Below, piece by piece: positions 8,241-64,000 of a stretch of DNA of 64,000 bases. The stretch comes from Sphagnum magellanicum (lineage: Eukaryota; Streptophyta; Sphagnopsida; Sphagnales; Sphagnaceae). Each line of letters starts with the position of its first letter. Position 1 is the first letter of the stretch. Under the pieces are notes generated by a model, which was not told the origin of the DNA, made no database searches, and saw nothing but the letters and a program-made list of their open reading frames with translations. A program made the translations under genes and the position numbers. The DNA is taken from contig CM038908.1 in NCBI GenBank assembly GCA_021904315.1, positions 29,254,001 through 29,318,000 of the forward strand, written 5' to 3'.

Positions 8241-8794
8241 GGCCACTTATATTTGTGAATGCCCTCACCACTCATTTAATTGTCCAATAGGTGATTTTCT
8301 TCTCTCTCCATTTGCATTACATGAATAGCCTACCCAAGTGTAAATAGGGTCCCTAAACCCTAAACCCTAATCACAAGCTCAATGAACTGAACCCGAGAAA
8401 GAATTTGGAACACTTTATGAGCAATATATGTTAGTGTGTTTGGGGTTAATTCTATTATTCCTGAACCTTTCTTTCTCTCACTTGTTCAAACTTGTTTAAT
8501 GACCTAAAATATTGATTGAGGCTAAGGGTGACTTCCCCTAGTGTTGTTGAGAGCTCCTGAACCATGAAATGCCAAAATCACTCAATCTGAGGACAAAGGC
8601 TGTGTCGGTGGTCTCAGTTCTTTACACACTAGGAGTTGCAAGCCCAAGGGCCCTTGAAAATCAAAATAGATGAAAAGTTTACATGGATTCGTACATTGCA
8701 GCAAAAAGATATTGTAATGTAAGAATCCATGTAAATTTCATGGGTTGGGTTTAGGTTTTAGGGTTTAAGGTTTAGGGTTCAGTCTAAAACCTGT

Positions 8795-8915
8795 GATCAG
8801 TTGGTTCATTTGTTGGCCCTGCCTTGTAAGGCAGGGATATTGTGTTGAGAATCATTATAGAGTATAGTAGCTTTAAGGGATTTTGCTCCCCTATCAACTA
8901 GGTGAGATGATTCAT
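8795..8915 (+). repeat. dispersed repeat paired with 29020-29110 (inverted)
   Basis: The segment containing ATTATAGAGTATAGTAGCTT and AAGGGATTTTG reappears as its reverse complement at about 29030-29075, with a TGCCTTG(T/G)(A/T)AGGCA mini-palindrome at the outer side of both copies. It is probably the conserved end of a small dispersed element. Confidence 0.55.
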
Positions 8916-11900
8916 CCTAATTTGGTTGTAAGAAGATTCACATTCATCTTTTGACATTTTGTTTTCTCTGCCACCTCCTCAAATGTGCACCCAGCCCAAC
9001 TGACTTTGTCACCAATCTATAATCACAAAACTAAATATGAAAATATTTTCTTCAAAAATGATTATGGCACCCCTCATACACAAAAATTCATGTAATTCTT
9101 TCAAAATGTGACTATGTGATTGAAAACATTCAAATACACATGTCACAATGAGACTTTTTTATGTTTTTTTGGTTTGAAATTTTGCATAAATGTGAAATAT
9201 AAATATGAAAAGAGAAGATATGGATAAAATTATTTTACAAAAAAAGCCATTAGACTTGCAAAAAATTAAAAATCATGTTACAACATTTCCCTATTGGTTT
9301 TGGTTTGGTAACAAAATTTTACATGTTTAAGTAGGTCCTAGAACATGTCATCATTTAATGTGATATCCCTTCTGGATTCTTCATAATTAATGTACTGTAA
9401 AAAAATGAAAAAAAATAAAATCATGAATGTTTTTCCATTTACAACAACATGATATACATTAAAATAAATTAAAATTTGTTTTCCCCTAGCTATGACCAAA
9501 TTTATCATAAATATCAATTGTTGATATTAAATTGATGGCAGGGCCATTGTGTATAACACACCTTGTTGGAAGAGCAAGTTTGGGGGAAATTCAAGTATGC
9601 AAAAGGTCTTTTAGCACAGTTCAATCCAATGTTGGGTGGGTATTTGCTTGGGCTTGTGAGAATCACTGGTTCTAGATATGGTTAGTTAGAATGGAACCAG
9701 AATTGAGTCTGATTTTTGGAATCTGAGCAGGAACTGAACCTGACTTTAATTTCTTAAAGAACTGGACCTAGAATCATCATGCACTATTTAGCTAAGGAAC
9801 TGGGTACCAGAACTCAGTTTTTTTTGGCAAAAAATGATTAGATAGGGGGATTAATCCCCACTTAACTACCAATTCCAGTCCAAGTTAGTAAGAACCAGAT
9901 CTGATTTTCAAAAGGGGAACTGGATTTATTTGTTTACTCAAGTGGACCCCAAACCAGATTCCAAGAAAGATGTAGATACTTGAGATTTCACCATTCTTTC
10001 ACTATTACTAACTGGTTTGGGTGTCCGCTTCAAGCACATTTTTAGGGCCTTTCCTAGGTGGGACAGGTAGTCATTTGTTGGTTCCACTTTTGGAGTGGTT
10101 AGATTCACTTGTAAAGGTCAATTCACACATAAGGTTTGGCCATCTTGATGAAGGCGCTAATGGCCAAAAAAGCCATCTACAAAGAGTGTGTTGACACGAA
10201 TTAAAGACATTAACAATTCATCATTAACATTCTTTATTTCACTATCCTTGTTTGCACTTAAGGTTAGGTTAGAGTTGTGTAAGTGTTGTTAATAGTTTTT
10301 TTGTTGCCTTTGTTCATGACTTTTTTTTAATTTTTTTGCTTTTAATGAGTGTTTTTGCTTTTGATAAGCATCTTCACTTTCTTTGTTTTTAATATTAAAA
10401 TGAAATATATATGTACCCTAGGCAAAATAAATGTATAAGTTAAATAGCCAAACTAGTATGGTTGATTTGAGTAAATATTAAATCATAATGGTCAATTTGG
10501 TTAATTGTAAATCACAATGGTTATTGAATATGATCAATTTGACTAAACTTTGGTCATTTTGATGGATCGATAGCGTTTTTGACCATATGTTTGGTTTGTC
10601 ACATAATCAAAAAGATCATTTTAGTCAAATGTTTCAATACAAAATAACTTGTGTTTTTCATGCCCCAAACCTTTAGTAAAGTTGAACCTTTTGAAAACTC
10701 ATGTTTTCTTGTTGGTATACATTCCTTTTACTATGACATCTCCCATTGTCATCAAAATTTATATGTTTCCCCTCCTAATGGCATGTTGAGTGGAGTTATT
10801 CCTCATGTAGATATTTATAGGTAAGATATTCTCATAAGTTTTGAACCAATTTTTATAATGCAACCAATGTGAAGATGTTGTAAAATATAAGTACCAAATG
10901 TGAAGATGTTATGTGAAGTTGTGAACTTTCAAGATCCAAACCATTTTGAGGAACTTAAGCAAGGTGAATGATAAGATACTAGGCAAATAAAAAAGGATTT
11001 GTCTTTGTTTTTGAAAAATTCTAAGAAACAAATGACGACATACAAATCAAAAAAGTGGTGAGAAATGAATATGTGAAGGTGATTTGACCTAAAACTAAAT
11101 TAATTTAAATATTGAGTTGTTTGGATAAAGATCAAACTAATAAACTTAATCTTAAACTCAATTTGCCCACTTTGCTATAGTTGTCCATGTTTAATGAACC
11201 ATGTGGTAGTTCTAAAACCATGTTTGAATTCTAAAGATGGTGGTTGCTACATTTTCGTTTGTTCATGTGGTACTAAGTTGGATCACTTGGCTTTTGACAT
11301 TAGGTATTTAGCAATCAATAGACCTACACACAAACGGATGTAGTTGTTGAAAAAAGGGATGTGATATTTGGTCATTATCTACTTACTTCAAGTATTGACT
11401 TTAGTTCTTTCCTAAAAAAATATTTGGTTGAAACATATACTTATAGTGGCTAACAAAGAAAAAAACAAAGGTTTTTTGTTATTTTGATGTGTAAATTTGT
11501 TTTTTTGTTGTTTTATTTGTTTGTTTGTTGCAATTTGTGATCTCTTGAGATCCATAAAATTTTATTTATAGTGTTTATTGTTGGGCGATTACTACGAATA
11601 TGCTTACAATTTGAAGGTTTTAATTTGAAGATGGGATGTTTTTATCCCAATGTTAAGTGATTTTTTCTTTTGTAATTGACAATGCCAATCCCTTAACTTG
11701 ACCATGTGCATTACAATTCACTAACATTAAAAAGAAGTGATAGAAAGCAGATGCAACAATTTTGCACACCATGATTATATTCTTCATAGTATTGTAAAAA
11801 ATAAGTTAAATTTGTTTGCATTATATTAAGATTGTTGTGCTTATGTGTAGTTAATTGGTTTCTTAAGACAAACATTGGGGATTAGTTTTGTCAAATGAGT

Positions 11901-30200: not shown

Positions 30201-30570
30201 AATGCAACTTTTCTCATTGTATGAAGTTTCATTGATGTGCATGTAGGAATGACATCCATGTCAGTATAAGGAGACATTGCAACTCTTCTAACATGAAGTT
30301 TGATTGATGGGCATGTGTGGTAATGACATTCAATTTAGCATTTGGAGAAATTGCAACTCTTCTCACATGAAGTTTTGTTCATGTGTGTGTAAGAATGACA
30401 TCCTCCAAGTTAGTATGTGGAGAAATTGCAACTCTTCTCACATGAAGTTTTGTTCATGTGTGTGTAAGAATGACATCCTCTAAAGTTAGTACGTGGAGAA
30501 ATTGCAACTCTTCTCACAATGAAGTTTTGATTTTGTGGTTATGTAGGAATGACATCCAATTGTGGAGTGG
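30201..30570 (+). repeat. five tandem ~75-bp repeats upstream of the S-protein gene
   Basis: Units start at about 30202, 30277, 30351, 30426 and 30502 (period 74-76 bp). Each carries TTGCAACT(C/T)TTCT, then ATGAAGTTT, then (A/G)AATGACAT, and usually ends GGAGAAA. The third and fourth units are nearly identical, so the array expanded recently. The last unit merges into the TATA box at 30572. Confidence 0.88.
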
Positions 30571-30571
30571 A

Positions 30572-30580
30572 ATATATAAA
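30572..30580 (+). promoter_or_regulatory. TATA box of the S-protein homologue gene
   Basis: ATATATAAA directly follows the 75-bp repeat array. Transcription about 30 bp downstream would begin near 30604, after the ATGs at 30588 and 30591. This favours the in-frame ATG at 30630 as the true start. Confidence 0.6.
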
Positions 30581-30587
30581 GCAGTGC

Positions 30588-31022
30588 ATGATGAAATCAT
30601 GGTTGGGCAGGAGGAGATTGGTGCTGCTGATGATGTTATTGATGATCACAGTAATAGGGGGTGTGCAACCAACAGCTGCTGATCATGTGTGGATCCAAAA
30701 CCAAATGGGGGAAACATTGGAGGTGCATTGCATGTCTGGGGATGATGATCTAGGTTGGCAAATACTAGCAAATGGGCAAATCTATGGTTTTGGATTCTCA
30801 CAAAACGTTTGGGGGACAACTCTGTTCTGGTGCATTTTTAGAGCTCAAGGATATTTAGATCACCACCAGGATGTGTTCAAGGGAGTAAACTATCTGCATC
30901 ACACATGCTGGTGTACTGTTTGCGATTGGGGGGTATCTCCATCAGGATTCAGATGCAATAACAAATTGATGGCAGGATGGGGCAAGCACACAGCCAAGAA
31001 TGCTGTCAAGCAGCTGGTATGA
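30588..31022 (+). CDS. S-protein homologue (self-incompatibility S1 family), secreted
   Basis: A 144-residue frame, or 130 if translation starts at 30630. It begins with a basic and then hydrophobic signal peptide (LVLLMMLLMITVIGG ... PTAA), cleaved near residue 30. The mature part has the plant self-incompatibility S1 (SPH) pattern: VWIQNQ at the start, LEVHCMSGDDDLGWQIL, FGFSQNVWGTTLFWCIF, a C-x-V-C-D-W segment and FRCNN near the end. Several of its Cys residues are expected to form disulphides. SPH proteins are small secreted ligands. One poppy member is the female self-incompatibility determinant, but most have unknown roles. An ATG at 30549 exists but lies inside the tandem repeat and is disfavoured. 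No second SPH copy is seen nearby. Confidence 0.88.
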   Translation: MMKSWLGRRRLVLLMMLLMITVIGGVQPTAADHVWIQNQMGETLEVHCMSGDDDLGWQILANGQIYGFGFSQNVWGTTLFWCIFRAQGYLDHHQDVFKGVNYLHHTCWCTVCDWGVSPSGFRCNNKLMAGWGKHTAKNAVKQLV

Positions 31023-32301: not shown

Positions 32302-37100
<4,799 letters not shown>

Positions 37101-55345: not shown

Positions 55346-57480
55346 ATAAAATAAAATAAACTAATCTAAATACCCATGTATGAGGGTTTAATTATTATAC
55401 ATGCCCAACAATAAAACCCTCACAATTAGATTGGTATTGGTTATGGTATTGAAAAACTGACCACCAAAATACACCCTCTTTTAATGGCAAATTCAGTCAT
55501 AATTAATTGTTTTGGCAAGTGACAAATAATTCGGTTTCGATAAGAAAAACTACCTAATCTCTTGAACATTTACAAATGAAAGTGCCTAACTTATATACTA
55601 ATCATTTCAATTAAAAATAATAATTCTTTGATTTTGTGATACTTTAAAAATCAAAACCAATGACTATAACAAAACACTACTACCAAAGTGGGGTGTAATT
55701 TACTAGTTTAAATCATTATGGGACCTTAAAATTGAAATAATTTCATTGCATTTTACTAATTTCACCTATTGAAAGTTATTTCACCATGTAGATACTATGT
55801 TAATATCAGTATGTAAACATCATGATTCATTACTAGTTAACATAATTCATTATTTCAATTTACTATAGCAAATAGGTTTATTTATATGTTTTTTAAAATA
55901 TTCTATCTATGTTAGTTTATGATATACCCTATATTATTTTAAGTTACTTTAGTTATTTTAACTTATATTTTATGTTATTATATGTTATTATAAATTATTT
56001 TATCCTAAGCATAATAACTTAAAATAATCTAAAACAAAATATAATGACCTAAGGTAAAAATAATTTAGAATAGAAAATAATAACCTATGAAAAATAATTT
56101 TAAATACCCTAAAATATAATAACTACCAATAGCCTATGATATGATAACATAGAATATCAAACAATAATTTATAATACAATAATCATCAATAGTTGTAATA
56201 TAACATATAATAATCAATAATAACTTATAAAAAAATAACCACTAATAACCATTCATAAAATAGCCACCAACAACCATTAATAGAATAACCACCAATAGCC
56301 ATTAATAGAATAACCACCAATAAGCCATTAATAAAATAGCCACTAATAGCCATTAATAGATTAATCCCGAATAGCCATTAATAAATTAATCACAAATAGC
56401 CATTAATATATTAGTCACGAATAGTCATTAATAGAATAGCCACCAATAGCCATTAATAGATTAATCACGAATAACCATTAATAGAATAGCCACCAATAGC
56501 CATTAATAGAATAGCCACTAGTAACCAATAATAGAATAGCCACTAGTAGCCATTAATATAGTAGCCATTAATAACCATTAATAGAATAGCCACCAATAGC
56601 CACCAATAGCCACCAATATAATAACTATTAATGGCCATTAATAAAATAACCACCAATAACTATTAATAAAATTACCACTAAAAAACATTGATAGCCACAA
56701 ATAAAATATGTACCAATAGCCATTAATAAACACCAATAACACTAATAAAAGAATAACTAATAACCATATATTATAATTGCTTAGGATTACCAAAAATAAT
56801 TTAAGGTGAAATAACTTTCAATAGTTAAAAGTAATTTATAATAGCTACAAGTAGTCTAAATTGAAATAATTTACAATAGCCAAAAATAACATAAAATAGA
56901 AAAAAAACTTACAATAGCTGAAAATAGCTTAAGGTGAAATAAGTTAAAATAACCAAAAGTAATTTATAATAACTACAAATAGTTTAAATTGAAATAATCT
57001 ACAATAGCCAAAAATAACATAAAATAACTAAAAAAACTTACAATAGCTGAAAATAACCTAAATTGAAATAAGTTAAAATAGTAAAAAATAACTTAGAATA
57101 ACCAAAAGTAACTTAGGATGAAATAGCCAAAAATAACCAAAAGTAATTGAAAATAACCATAAATAGCCGTAAATAATGTAGGGTAAAAAATATTCATATA
57201 ATAATTGAAAGTAGTTTAACATAGGTAGTATTATTATATTAACTAAAAAAAAAATTTTCCAAAAGAATGGTCATTGAAATGTTATTAAATAATGATATTC
57301 AATTATTTTTTTGTTCAAATGATTTTAAACTTTCAAAAGGAAATAAATGTAATTATGTACATTATTGAATTTTTTAAAAAAATAAACTCGAATCATTTCA
57401 TTTGAACAAAATCTCAATAACATATGAATTTTCAAAGTTTATGTTTTTGTAATGTTTAAAATGAAGTATTTCATAAATAA
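55346..57480. repeat. AT-rich satellite tract
   Basis: 56210-56740 is an array of about 20-30-bp units built on AATAGCCATTAATAGAATAG and CCACC(A)ATAGCC. 56820-57090 contains two units of about 128 bp (AAAAGTAATTTATAATA ... CTTACAATAGCTGAAAATA). The rest is AT-rich low complexity. No gene. Confidence 0.8.
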
Positions 57481-58275: not shown

Positions 58276-58755
58276 ATTATTGTGCGTTCTTATGTTGACG
58301 CTTATAACTATCGTTGTGACCACATTCACAACACAACATAAAAATACCTTAAATGGTACACCACATCCAAACCAAAAGACTAATTCACTTGCAATAACGC
58401 AAGAATCCAAGCCCAAAACATAAAAAACCAAAACACTTATATAAGAAAATAACAAAGCAAAAACCATGTTCTAGAATATGAAATCACTAAAAGTGATTTG
58501 AGATCACACAAAATAGGATTATATTTCATGACAAATATCCCAAACCTCATTCACACATGAACTGGTTCAAGATTAACTAATTAGCTTAACTAACTTAGTT
58601 TATTTTTAATTAACTAAGACATAATTAAGCAATTAAACTAACACACCTAACAATTGTCGTGTGTTCCTATGTTGGTGCTTATAACCGTTGATCTCACCAC
58701 ATTCACAACACATAACATAAAAATACTTTAAATGGTACATCACATCCAAACTACC
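58276..58755. repeat. two direct ~105-bp repeats 370 bp apart
   Basis: Copies at about 58276-58380 and 58648-58755 share TATGTTG(A/G)(C/T)GCTTATAAC, CCACATTCACAACACA and AACATAAAAATAC(C/T)TTAAAT then GGTAC. No coding potential. They could be the ends of a very small element or a simple duplication. Confidence 0.6.
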
Positions 58756-58982: not shown

Positions 58983-59110
58983 GAGCAAAACCATTTGCCA
59001 ACTGGCACTTCTTCCATTGGTGGCATGAAATATCCCATATGTCAACTTCAAGAACACTTGTTACAAATCAACATAGCAACAACTTTTGAAGCTTGCCCAC
59101 ACTACATTGT
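58983..59110 (-). pseudogene. PHD-finger remnant after the integrase
   Basis: The frame reads CGQASKVVAMLICNKCS, then two stops in quick succession, then HMGYFMPPMEEVPVGKWFC. This is the PHD pattern: a Cys cluster, A-M-L-x-C-x-x-C, W-H-M, PP-x-x-x-VP-x-G-x-W-x-C. PHD fingers read histone H3 tails. In Ty3/gypsy elements a chromodomain often occupies this C-terminal place, so a PHD here would be a different chromatin-reading module. The first Cys pair and the Trp of W-H are damaged. Confidence 0.62.
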
Positions 59111-60167: not shown

Positions 60168-61080
60168 CCTTTTGCACACGTAGAATAACATGTCTTATAA
60201 TCATATCCAAAGTGGTTGGTGTTGTTAGTTGCAAGTAAACATAATCTCCTTGTTCAAACCTTCAAATCTGAAGCTAATAACTACCTCCACGTATAGTGGC
60301 ATAATGCAATGTATTTCGATGTTAGGCAATTGCTAGATTTCCCATAACCATGGGCATAACACATCGAAATAAGGTGGCTTATTGCTCACATGCCTACATC
60401 CACATATTAGGATCATCCATGTTGATTACTACCATTGCATCTCATGGAATAGAGGCTAATAACTTAGGCTCATGGCTAAACAATAAGAAGTATGATGAAA
60501 AAGATGAAAAAGAAGCTTGCCAACTAAACTTATACCCCATAACTAGCCATGGTAACTATAAATCCCAATCTCGAGTATGGCCCTTATGAAGACCATATTT
60601 TTGCAAACCTTACTTCACTATTTACATCATCCGCTCAACTAACCTATTTGCTTCAGGATGGTTTCGTGAAGTTATGCAATGATTAATCAATGTTTTTTCA
60701 CACAACTCTTGGAATTCCCCACGAAATTTTGTACCTTGGTTAGTGAGAACTTTGGCTGGAGCCCCAAACCTATTAAGTACCTTGTCCAAAAATGCATATG
60801 ATGATCTTTCAGTGCTACAATTCAACAATGGAACCAACTCCAACCACTTGGAGAAATGCTCAATCATAACCAAAACATATCAATTATGTCGAGGTGTTAA
60901 AGTCAATGGGTTGAAAAAATCCAAACTCCATCGATACCCAAGCCCCATAATTGGTAAGGGTTGTAGGTGAGGTGCAGGTGCATTGAAAGATGCCCAAATA
61001 AATTGTTGAAATTTATAATTGCATCCCTTGCCACCAGTACTATGTTTGGAACAAATTGTATGTCCAACGGATCCCAAAAT
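60168..61080 (-). pseudogene. integrase region of the gypsy polyprotein
   Basis: The core contains YRWSLDFF (first catalytic Asp, about 60915-60932), IEHFSKWLELVPL, FLDKVLNRFGAPAKVLTNQG (the family has TDQG, so the second Asp is changed to Asn) and NHPEANRLVERM (Glu). Downstream, a degenerate tail with GDYVYLQLTTPTTL matches the usual integrase C-terminal basic domain. Several stops (for example after PRHN) make it inactive. Confidence 0.8.
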
Positions 61081-61539
61081 GGCCCCCTAACTCCTAATGA
61101 GCATGCCTCACAAGGCTTTCACATTATTTTGGGTGAAGTACAACCTTCACTTGTCCATCTTCCCACATCCGTAGGAGGGAATTACCTTCCCACTTGAATC
61201 ACTTGGCCCTTTACACAACACGATCCCTTTCTTTGGGTGTTAATCCAAATGGAATTTCACCTACTTGCAAATATGCAAAAATAGGTGCATCATCATAAAT
61301 ATCCAGGGCACCATTGCCTTCCGACTCCATGTTCACATCATGGGGATCCCCATCATCTACATTAGTAAGAGGTACATCCCCAAAACACCCCAATAAAGTA
61401 CAAAGCTATGTAGAGGCATGCCATCCTAGTACCACCTCCAAATCCACATCACCATGGCAACGGGCCCCAATGGTATCCTCCTCGTTGGAACTTGGGTTCT
61501 AACTCAACCCATTAGCATTTTGATTAACCCTACCAAGTG

Positions 61540-62740
61540 TGTGAATTATATCAAAGTCATACTCTTGTAGGATAAATGCCCACTTAGCCAACTTTGCTAT
61601 GAATCAATTTGATTCCATGAGGAATTTCAAAGGCTAGTGATTAGTAATCAAAGTGAATGGGCTACCATAAAGATAACATTGAAATGATGAAACAACCCAA
61701 ACAATTGCAAGGCACTCCCTCTCATATGAGCTATACTTGATTTCCATTTTGTTGTTGGACCGACTAGCATATGCCATCACAAACTTTTGACCATCATCAT
61801 CAAGTTGGGTAAGCATAGCTCCTAGCCCTAAAATACTCCAATCAATGTGTAATTGGAATGGTCATCCTTGGATGGGTCACCTCAAAATGGGCGTTGACAA
61901 AAGCCTAGTTTTCACCTCCTGAAAGGCCTATTTTTGTGGCTCATTCCAAATGAATTCCTGGTCAATCTGCTTGAGTCAAATTAAAGGTTTGGCTATGTTA
62001 TTGAAGCCTTTCACAAACCTCCAATAGTAATTACACAAGCTTAGAAAAATTCATAACCGACTAACATCTGTTTGTTGGGGAACTTGTGAAAATGGCTTCA
62101 ACCTGGGCATTCTAAACCCCTAATCCACCTAAATAAATCATGTGACCAAGGTATTCTACCTGAGTATGAAAGAACTAACACTTGCTTGGATGAAACTTAA
62201 GGTTATGTTCTTTAAGTTTTTTAAACACCTTTCACAAATGGTGCATATGATCTCCTAAGGTCAGGCTGAAAATAATGATGTCATCAATGTAGCATTTAGC
62301 AAAACCAAGACCCACCAACACTCGATCCATGACCTTTTGAAATTTTGCAAGGGCATTTTTCAAACCAAATGGCAAAAACTTCCATTGGTACAAATAATCC
62401 TTCCCATGGGGGTCAATTCCCCAAAAAATTATTTTGACTCTATCACCTTCCCTCAATGGCAACTGATGGTAGCCAAACCTTAAGTCCAAGGTACTAAAAA
62501 CCTTGGCATGTCCAAGGGCATCAAAGATCTCCTCCGATAGGGGCATGGCATATTTGACTAAACGGGTTCGTTTATTCATCCGACGATAATCCCCACACAT
62601 GCAACGTTCAATCCAATTGCCAAAAATGTCCCTCTTAGCTGGCATCATTGTTGTTAAAGCATATTCACCCCTAGATAATTCCACCAAACTAACATCCAAC
62701 AATTTTGTTGTTCGAACTTGAACCAAGGCTCTTTCCACCT
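61540..62740 (-). pseudogene. reverse transcriptase and RNase H of the gypsy polyprotein
   Basis: A 168-residue open block (62738-62232) covers the RT palm and fingers: CMCGDYRRMNKRT, STLDLRFGYHQLPL, LPFGLKNALAKFQKVMDRVL and the catalytic YIDDI. After several stops the RNase H part reads LTQLDDDGQKFVMAYASRSN, KYSSYERECLAIVW and FQCYLYGSPFTLITNH (61816-61634). These are standard Ty3/gypsy signatures. Confidence 0.88.
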
Positions 62741-63329
62741 CACTAAGCTTGTAAGGTTGCTTAAAATTAGATTATCATCTTCCAATATGATTCAAACCTT
62801 TTCTCCCCTTAATTGACCCAATTCCTTCAAACTAAAGGCAAAACATCCAATGAAATCTTATATTATTTGTCGTGCTTCATGCACCTCATCTCTTATAACT
62901 GTTGGGCCGATTCTTGGGTCCCATGTTTCTGCAATCATCTATACCTTGGGTTGGGATGATGGAACATCCCCAACAGCCAAGGTTGAAGGCATGGCCTTTG
63001 ATTGTTACGCAAAATGTGGAAAGGTGCCATCATGTCTTGGCACCCCCACATCACCAATTTCATGTTCCACATTCATAAATGTCCCTTGGCATCCCTGATC
63101 CCATAGTTGCCAAGGATGTATTTGTCATATTATAACATCACCCCCCCCCCTTGCATTGCCATGCTAACCCAATAAAAGGTGCAACAAGTGAAATATGGGG
63201 TGGAGTGGGTGGGTGTGATTGGCTAAACGTAATTGTTCTACCAAGCCCAAGCTGAAAATCCATGTGAGGTAGTTGAAATTCGTAACTTGCCCCAAAATCC
63301 ACCTACAGGTGCCTTCGAAAATGCCTTAC
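62741..63329 (-). other. linker between methyltransferase and reverse transcriptase, poorly conserved
   Basis: The frame continues with many stops. No D-T/S-G protease triad could be recognised. A C9 run at 63142-63150 probably adds a frameshift. Confidence 0.35.
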
Positions 63330-64000
63330 ATAGTTGTGGTGCCAATGCAGAACCCCATGGCCCATTCCCTCTCATCTGCATTGGGTTCTTCCATATTGGA
63401 TGAATGGGAATCCCAAATCATCCCTGGGCCCCCATTCCTAAATGCACGAGAATGTGGAAAATTAAAAAATGTTGGTAGGGCTATTCATGGAAGGCCAACC
63501 CTATTGACCATAGCCAAAGGTGGTCGATCATCATGACGAACCACGCATGAATGGCATCTTGGATTTAATATGTCATCCACCAAGCATGTGGGTGACCGAG
63601 GAATGAATTCATATGCTTGTTGGATCACCTCTGGTGGTGTTAGGTTAGTCCACATCCATCGGAACTAATGAGTTCATGAACCAATTGAAGCAACATCCAC
63701 CTACACTAGCTCGCGAATCCAACCCCTAATATGTTGCCATCCAACCAAAATGGTTGGCCTAGAATCCCCCAGTGGTGGGACATTCTCCAACAAATATGCA
63801 CATGGGTGCATATGTGACTTTTGCAAATGTTGCACAACATGAATCAATTCCCAAAATAAACTTGACCTAGGATCGAAAAGTCCACAACCCATATTTGCTT
63901 GTGAAAGACCTTAGCATGGCCATCCAAAAATGACCAAATCAATTGGCCCAATACTTGCCAAATCTAATGCCTTTAGCAAGGTGATGTTGTTTTGTAAAGA
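63330..64000 (-). pseudogene. DNMT3-like cytosine-5 DNA methyltransferase domain of the gypsy element (partial)
   Basis: From the window edge the frame reads ASIGPIDLVIFGWPC, a TAA at 63913-63911 exactly where motif IV (PCQ) has its Gln, then GLSQAN, GLFDPRSSLFWELIHVVQHL and YLLENVPPLGDSRPTILVGW (motif VI ENV at 63787-63779). It continues as FRWMWTNLTPPEVIQQAYEF (compare R-Y-F-W-G-N-L-P of DNMT3), ALPTFFNFPHSRAFRNGGPG and NADEREWAMGF near 63350. Motif order IV-VI-C-terminal is the canonical one, not the rearranged DRM order. Motif I (cofactor binding) would be beyond 64000. Stops at the Gln and after WIRELV, among others, show this copy is dead. Confidence 0.82.

Follow-up and report, generated by a model that had tools for sequence, protein, structure and literature searches.

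The right edge of the window, a 64,000-nt stretch of the Sphagnum magellanicum genome (contig CM038908.1, positions 29,254,001 to 29,318,000), contains a decayed Ty3/Gypsy element. A DNMT3-type cytosine methyltransferase (MT) lies in its pol region, upstream of the reverse transcriptase (RT). A first-pass annotation, made from the letters of the window, had read four MT motifs in a single minus-strand frame, and all were found as placed, between positions 63925 and 63350 (Table 1). The profiles it proposed as a check, PF00145 and a Gypsy RT profile, both matched this copy, PF00145 over its cut-off, and matches to RNase H, Integrase_H2C2, and rve follow on the same strand. The MT extends 246 bases beyond the window edge; residues 11-357 of an MT query from a second family (copy L021) matched it at 49% identity, with 10 stops. 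The annotation's statement that no gene boundary separates MT from RT was right for the domain order and wrong for the frame of this copy: MT and RNase H share one frame, RT and integrase occupy two others, and stops occur in all.

The left repeat A1, the partner of A2, was not found in the window copy. CpG in the copy is at 0.29 of expectation, compared with 0.38 in the remaining window. S. magellanicum has at least three families of the element, and this copy is a fossil from one of them. Its arrangement is far beyond chance: other copies repeat the domain order, and their open frames reach 2379 codons.

Table 1. Features of the decayed element at the right edge of the window (window positions)
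Feature	Positions	Strand	Evidence or remark
MT domain, DNMT3-type cytosine-5, decayed	63197..64000, on to 64246 past the window	minus	PF00145 (DNA_methylase) 2.8e-9; motifs
Motif IV, GWPC(stop)GLSQ	63925-63899	minus	same frame as the three other motifs
Motif VI, YLLENV	63796-63779	minus	same frame as motif IV
FRWMWTNL block	63664-63641	minus	same frame as motif IV
NADEREWAMGF block	63382-63350	minus	same frame as motif IV
Gypsy reverse transcriptase, decayed, 3 stops	62088..62765	minus	RVT_1 9.6e-27; 63% identity to L021 RT
RNase H	61559..61948	minus	PF17919 7.5e-30, PF17917 3e-29
Integrase zinc-binding domain	61019..61129	minus	Integrase_H2C2 (PF17921) 4.4e-7
Integrase core (DDE, rve)	60655..60936	minus	PF00665 1.5e-10
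C-terminal PHD finger remnant (CGQASKVVAMLICNKC..)	58985..59101	minus	read by eye from the frame
Split repeat B1	58653..58751	minus	83.8% identity to B2; run of six G just upstream
Split repeat A2	58373..58652	minus	assigned from its place between B1 and B2
Split repeat B2, right end of element	58276..58372	minus	pairs with B1

Linkage of methyltransferase and reverse transcriptase

Copies were sought in a 439-Mb S. magellanicum assembly of 31 contigs, from which 20 loci were retrieved, picked mostly for long open frames; of 1124 MT candidates, 111 were scored. PF00145 gave 124 matches genome-wide, some of which are host genes. Locus L009 encodes, in a single 2379-codon frame, protease (residues 728-824), MT (1025-1112, profile core), RT (1487-1641), RNase H, integrase, and a PHD finger (2330-2374), all assigned with Pfam. 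The annotation's suggestion of a land-plant Ty3/Gypsy element in which a DNMT3-like MT precedes RT is thus supported, with both domains in one open reading frame (ORF) in copies other than the one it described. At least three families were distinguished: F1 (L009 type), F2 (L020, L021, and L028), and F3 (the window copy), the last being 49% identical to F2 in the MT and 63% in RT. Apart from the MT inserted between protease and RT, the order of the Pfam domains in pol is that of Ty3/Gypsy elements (protease, RT, RNase H, and DDE integrase). No tyrosine recombinase was among the Pfam matches of L009, L010, L020, and L021, which have an rve integrase instead.

An MT match was listed no more than 3 kb upstream, on the same strand, for 68 of the first 98 of 150 RT matches listed. 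For eight of the other 30, the 2 kb upstream was examined and MT sequence was present each time, with most of the domain in seven and only its last 45 residues in one. Conversely, RT was listed downstream for 28 of 38 F2/F3-type MT matches. One explanation is that the MT is a chance neighbor, either a pseudogene of a host DNMT or an unrelated repeat nested beside a Gypsy element, as could be read from the window copy alone, with its broken frames and its MT at the window edge, and from the remaining 10 of the 38 MT matches, for which no RT was found among the RT matches listed. Uninterrupted single frames in other copies, the upstream MT of the 68 RT matches and of all eight sampled from the other 30, and an identical domain order in two proteins from other sources (P0005 and P0007) all stand against it. 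Since open frames run across MT and RT, a chance neighborhood is already refuted, and we assign it virtually no probability. Separation of MT from RT in paralogues, which the annotation had named as the sign of such a neighbor, was looked for, and these same counts speak against it.

Four loci do not belong to the element. The PF00145 matches at L002, L005, and L030 fall in host DRM genes, whose motif order is rearranged, and L029 was judged by eye to resemble a host gene of the MET/CMT type.

The PHD finger, a remnant in the window copy, is intact in L009, L010, and L021 (Pfam), and the solved PHD fingers it matches include those of KMT2C/D, KDM5, and ATXR5. Chromoviruses carry a chromatin-reader domain at the integrase C-terminus; the moss element has its PHD finger at the integrase end, where chromoviruses have a chromodomain, and no chromodomain was among the element Pfam matches. 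CrREM1 of Chlamydomonas, a green-algal Gypsy element with a PHD finger, resembles the moss element in this respect. In one Monoraphidium protein (P0052), residues 2352-2407 behind the PHD finger gave a PTM/DIR17-like Tudor match (3.8e-5, under the Pfam cut-off), perhaps a second histone reader.

Elsewhere in the window, an open frame at 30549-31019 (plus strand) has a plant self-incompatibility protein S1 domain (PF05938, 7.4e-19), here in a moss. The last part of a sodium:solute symporter domain (PF00474, 2.4e-8) lies in a frame at 32305-33267 (minus strand) that is overlapped by open frames on both strands, and AT-rich tandem arrays with AATAGCCACC/AATAACC-like units occupy 56234-57157.

Class and conservation of the methyltransferase

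A profile built from 40 MTs matched DNMT3A best (1.8e-25), followed by DRM (5.3e-14), HhaI (2.8e-8), and Dnmt2 (3.3e-6). The motif order is I-IV-VI-VIII-IX/X, as in DNMT3, and the rearranged order of the DRM type is absent. An AlphaFold2 model of the L021 MT domain (predicted local distance difference test score, pLDDT, 92.0; predicted template modeling score, pTM, 0.90) returned DNMT3 entries in all 50 rows among the Foldseek matches listed (best E value, 4.2e-20). Sequence and predicted fold (DNMT3A/B) together place the element MT in the DNMT3 class. The motif IV Cys, the motif VI Glu, and the motif VIII Arg pair are conserved in all 12 open MT copies and in all eight aligned sequences (two moss, two named algal, and four others).

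In F1, the main family, both domains are under purifying selection. The median ratio of nonsynonymous to synonymous change (dN/dS) was 0.218 for the MT (nine open copies, 36 pairs) and 0.331 for RT (13 copies, 78 pairs), all copies having been selected for stop-free domains. Selection indicates use without saying which use, and the MT might be kept for another job, such as methylating RNA, binding DNA, or holding transposition back for the good of the host. De Mendoza et al. (2018; PMC5890265) raise RNA methylation, for the LINE type, and a host-benefit role. With the best relatives being DNMT3-class DNA enzymes and not Dnmt2 (1.8e-25 against 3.3e-6), we give such another job a minority chance.

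Split-repeat termini and replication

Plain long terminal repeats (LTRs) bounding the element were looked for and not found. Instead, two direct repeats, A and B, are split between the ends. Among the 15 F1 copies whose right end was seen, eight have the layout A-ORF-B-A-B and seven have A-ORF-B, with a single B end. The annotation had named as support intact copies with both domains in one ORF between LTRs; the one ORF and the terminal repeats are there, the repeats being split direct repeats and not plain LTRs. The element is Gypsy by coding content, not by termini. F1 copies start with TGTC and finish with GACA, although some, such as L014, differ at one point. Such TG..CA ends and short target duplications are those of Ty3/Gypsy LTR elements. 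The 4-bp duplications matched in all six A-ORF-B-A-B copies with both ends seen, five of F1 and one of F2 (CAGC, CAAT, CGGG, GCAC, ATAT, and TTTC), and in two of three such A-ORF-B copies (L009, CTCT; L019, GGTT).

Of ten further loci with a B|A junction, eight, mostly 71-89% identical to the query pieces, showed internal-B-A-B; L059 (C4:3307500-3310500) has a tandem B-A-B-A-B right end, and L060 lacks the last B. The B-A-B right end is also present in F2 and F3. Divergence (K) between A1 and A2 and between B1 and B2 was 0.010-0.038 in seven copies, with transitions making up 53 of 65 changes. In L023, one of the seven F1 copies with a single B end, a stretch of repeat A in inverted orientation (8652-8927; 95% identity across 277 positions) directly follows that end, which puts L023 beside or within another copy.

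The A-ORF-B-A-B layout might be an ordinary LTR element reshaped by recombination after insertion rather than a product of replication. The A-ORF-B forms could come from B x B recombination, and the B-A-B-A-B end of L059 would suit such events. We nevertheless regard reshaping as highly improbable, given duplications that flank the A start and the B end exactly in six of six A-ORF-B-A-B copies, the recurrence of B-A-B in eight of ten further loci, with one longer and one shorter form, and its recurrence in F2 and F3. A DIRS-like layout is also reported for a Klebsormidium element (PMC5890265), which again argues against reshaping.

F1 copies carry candidate replication signals. A 12-nt word directly after A1 has its exact reverse complement in A, at position 181. 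This self-primer match measured at least 12 nt in six of eight F1 copies and 10 nt in one, and the site is mismatched in the remaining copy, L015, whose best match (9 nt) lies elsewhere. A control over 1143 positions of L024 gave no match of 10 nt or more (maximum, 9). All eight copies have TATAAA 31-32 nt before the predicted start, and a G-run resembling a polypurine tract adjoins B1. A tRNA primer site after A1 was rejected, there being no TGG within 60 nt in any of the eight copies. In Tf1 of fission yeast, the first RNA nucleotides are complementary to a site just after the 5' repeat and prime synthesis there, and the predicted F1 RNA start is likewise complementary to the site after the 5' repeat.

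F1 RNA would start at A:181 and self-prime on the 12 nt after A1, as in Tf1, and plus-strand DNA would start at the G-run before B1, giving a B-A-ORF-B-A cDNA. The self-primer and the G-run put the expected cDNA ends at the B start and the A end, whereas integrated copies have A at the beginning and B at the end, and so have the appearance of a circular permutation. Such ends would call for an intermediate that is circular or joined end to end. We infer that such an intermediate, opened by the integrase at the palindrome GACA-GC-TGTC of the B|A boundary, would yield the observed forms. Random opening of a two-LTR circle was rejected, as it should also produce mirror forms (A-B-A-ORF-B), seen in 0 of 35 in the F1 family. 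DIRS and PAT elements also have A-ORF-B-A-B split repeats, with a circular DNA intermediate in the accepted model, and they encode a tyrosine recombinase and are not known to make a target duplication. The moss element shares their split repeats and differs in its DDE integrase and 4-bp duplications.

Spread, origin, and proposed role

Related MTs were found in 57 long proteins, including four from Haematococcus lacustris and one from Monoraphidium neglectum. A search of short proteins gave 245 matches, and the 120 listed include several bryophyte names: Sphagnum troendelagicum, S. tenellum, Calypogeia fissa, Marchantia polymorpha, and Riccia sorocarpa. Two pol orders were recognized, type I (protease-MT-RT-RNase H-integrase, with or without PHD) and type II (RT-RNase H-MT-integrase-PHD), the latter including the named chlorophytes. 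The MT-Gypsy association that the annotation read is not confined to mosses, nor does it seem to be a recent one. Viral contigs gave 12 weak matches, the best 45% over 65 residues. Two MT-bearing proteins came from bacterial metagenome-assembled genomes, P0045 (Minisyncoccia) with a full Gypsy pol and P0076 (Obscuribacterales) with the MT alone observed; both are probably eukaryotic contamination of the bins.

MT and RT trees were built from 44 rows, six of type I, with neither host DNMT3 genes nor RT outgroups lacking an MT. Type I formed one branch in both (MT, 98/96; RT, 93/81, or 100/91 without the long branch P0057). Seven of the nine named bryophyte MTs were long enough for a quick tree (two were dropped), and they clustered with F2 and F3 (SH-aLRT 100; Shimodaira-Hasegawa-like approximate likelihood ratio test), within type I (95). 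Three of the four Haematococcus proteins were rows in the trees and clustered together.

Because the MT and RT trees agree, one old MT association plus one move of the domain within pol appears to fit better than several captures. Recent capture by each host lineage (moss, Klebsormidium, and chlorophytes) from its own DNMT3 could explain the two pol positions through two captures, and the trees were made without host DNMT3 genes. Type II MTs, however, retain 36-39% identity to the F2 MT along with the details of its motifs, the MT and RT trees each have type I as a single branch, and a single move of one domain is the simpler history, so separate captures are unlikely. Spread over green plants and algae by horizontal transfer between hosts, and not by descent, is likewise doubtful, if slightly less so. 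Retroelements are known to move between hosts, and most of the 57 long relatives are without host assignment; against this, Sphagnum F2/F3 and liverwort MTs cluster together and the Haematococcus rows do the same, as would be expected under descent.

The kind of element is already known through KnitGypsy-Dnmt3 of Klebsormidium nitens, described as an independent capture in that lineage (de Mendoza et al., 2018; PMC5890265). It resembles the moss element in its DNMT3-type MT inside a Gypsy Pol ORF, purifying selection, and DIRS-like repeat structure, a comparison drawn from its published description. SymbioDIRS-Dnmt3 of Symbiodinium, as described in the same text, likewise has its DNMT3 together with RT in Pol, and it shares with the moss and green elements the split direct repeats and the occurrence of two domain orders. 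It differs from the moss element in having a tyrosine recombinase in place of a DDE integrase; it methylated CG in yeast, and the authors suggest self-methylation of cDNA. The main text of PMC5890265 does not mention moss, PHD, or Sphagnum. The main text of the peat-moss genome paper (PMC9946827), which notes the recent reclassification of S. divinum within the S. magellanicum complex, does not mention methyltransferase, methylation, gypsy, or retrotransposon. The accessible portions of a 2025 Mol Biol Evol paper (PMC12344493) name no moss element, and those of a P. patens DNMT3 paper (PMC6453930) mention neither Sphagnum nor gypsy. No bryophyte or chlorophyte Gypsy-DNMT was reported among the literature matches listed, which covered open-licence titles and abstract openings without supplements. 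As far as this literature search reaches, what is new is the occurrence in land plants and chlorophytes, the two pol orders together with MT and RT trees that agree, the presence of a PHD finger, and the interpretation of the termini. Tf1 and chromoviruses are not known to carry an MT.

Taken together, the data point, with moderate confidence, to an old green-lineage Gypsy clade whose pol carries a DNMT3-type MT and, at the integrase end, a PHD finger, and which would methylate its own DNA copy and, in F1, replicate through permuted forms; the architecture, linkage, F1 purifying selection, DNMT3 class, split-repeat termini, and target duplications are its demonstrated parts. The MT would be delivered together with RT and integrase and would methylate the element's own DNA copy before or during integration, possibly in CG by analogy with SymbioDIRS-Dnmt3. 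The methylated copy might then be read by the host as its own, or the insertion might be packed quietly, and the PHD finger may steer integration through reading histone H3. Self-methylation of the DNA intermediate is our best guess.

Several observations weigh against this combined picture. F2/F3-type MTs without a listed RT have been described above. The named bryophyte MTs are known without pol context, and pol linkage was not seen for the liverworts. In F2, represented by one copy (L021), neither a self-primer nor a TATA box was found in A. In F1, genome-wide, the mirror form was seen in 0 of 35, compared with 21 of 35 in the expected form, and L017 (A-ORF-B) has no matching target duplication. 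Motif IV reads W-E-C in F1 and the algal MTs and W-P-C in F2, and, with our own patterns, motif I was unmatched in L010 and ERERAMGF in L028, both open copies. The three F2 MT pairs gave dN/dS values of 0.245, 0.614, and 1.244, with few changes. KnitGypsy-Dnmt3 produced no methylation in a yeast test, a result its authors call inconclusive (PMC5890265).

A more tentative proposal, which we think unlikely on balance, is that MTs go with a DNA circle and not with a particular integrase, the moss Gypsy passing through a closed circle that the MT methylates. Split-direct-repeat elements would have taken up MTs repeatedly (Dam-like adenine enzymes in DIRS; DNMT3 in SymbioDIRS and the green Gypsy elements). 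IS911-like transposon circles are opened at abutted ends, and the DDE integrase would similarly open the circle at the abutted-ends palindrome GACA-GC-TGTC. Methylation, including that of CpGs at the end of B, would protect the circle or gate integration, and the partnership of MT and element would date to early green plants.

Plants silence transposons by cytosine methylation, and therefore an element with its own de novo type MT defies the usual arms race. A single algal example could be an oddity; moss and chlorophyte elements together with related enzymes in liverworts make a stable strategy that asks for a reason. Signs of that stability are the purifying selection in the main moss family and the presence of the MT in copies with little repeat divergence. 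The permuted termini, self-primer, and target duplications describe a DDE-integrase element whose integration seems to need a circular or end-joined intermediate. In culture, Sphagnum and Marchantia would allow the question of why elements carry MTs to be tested.
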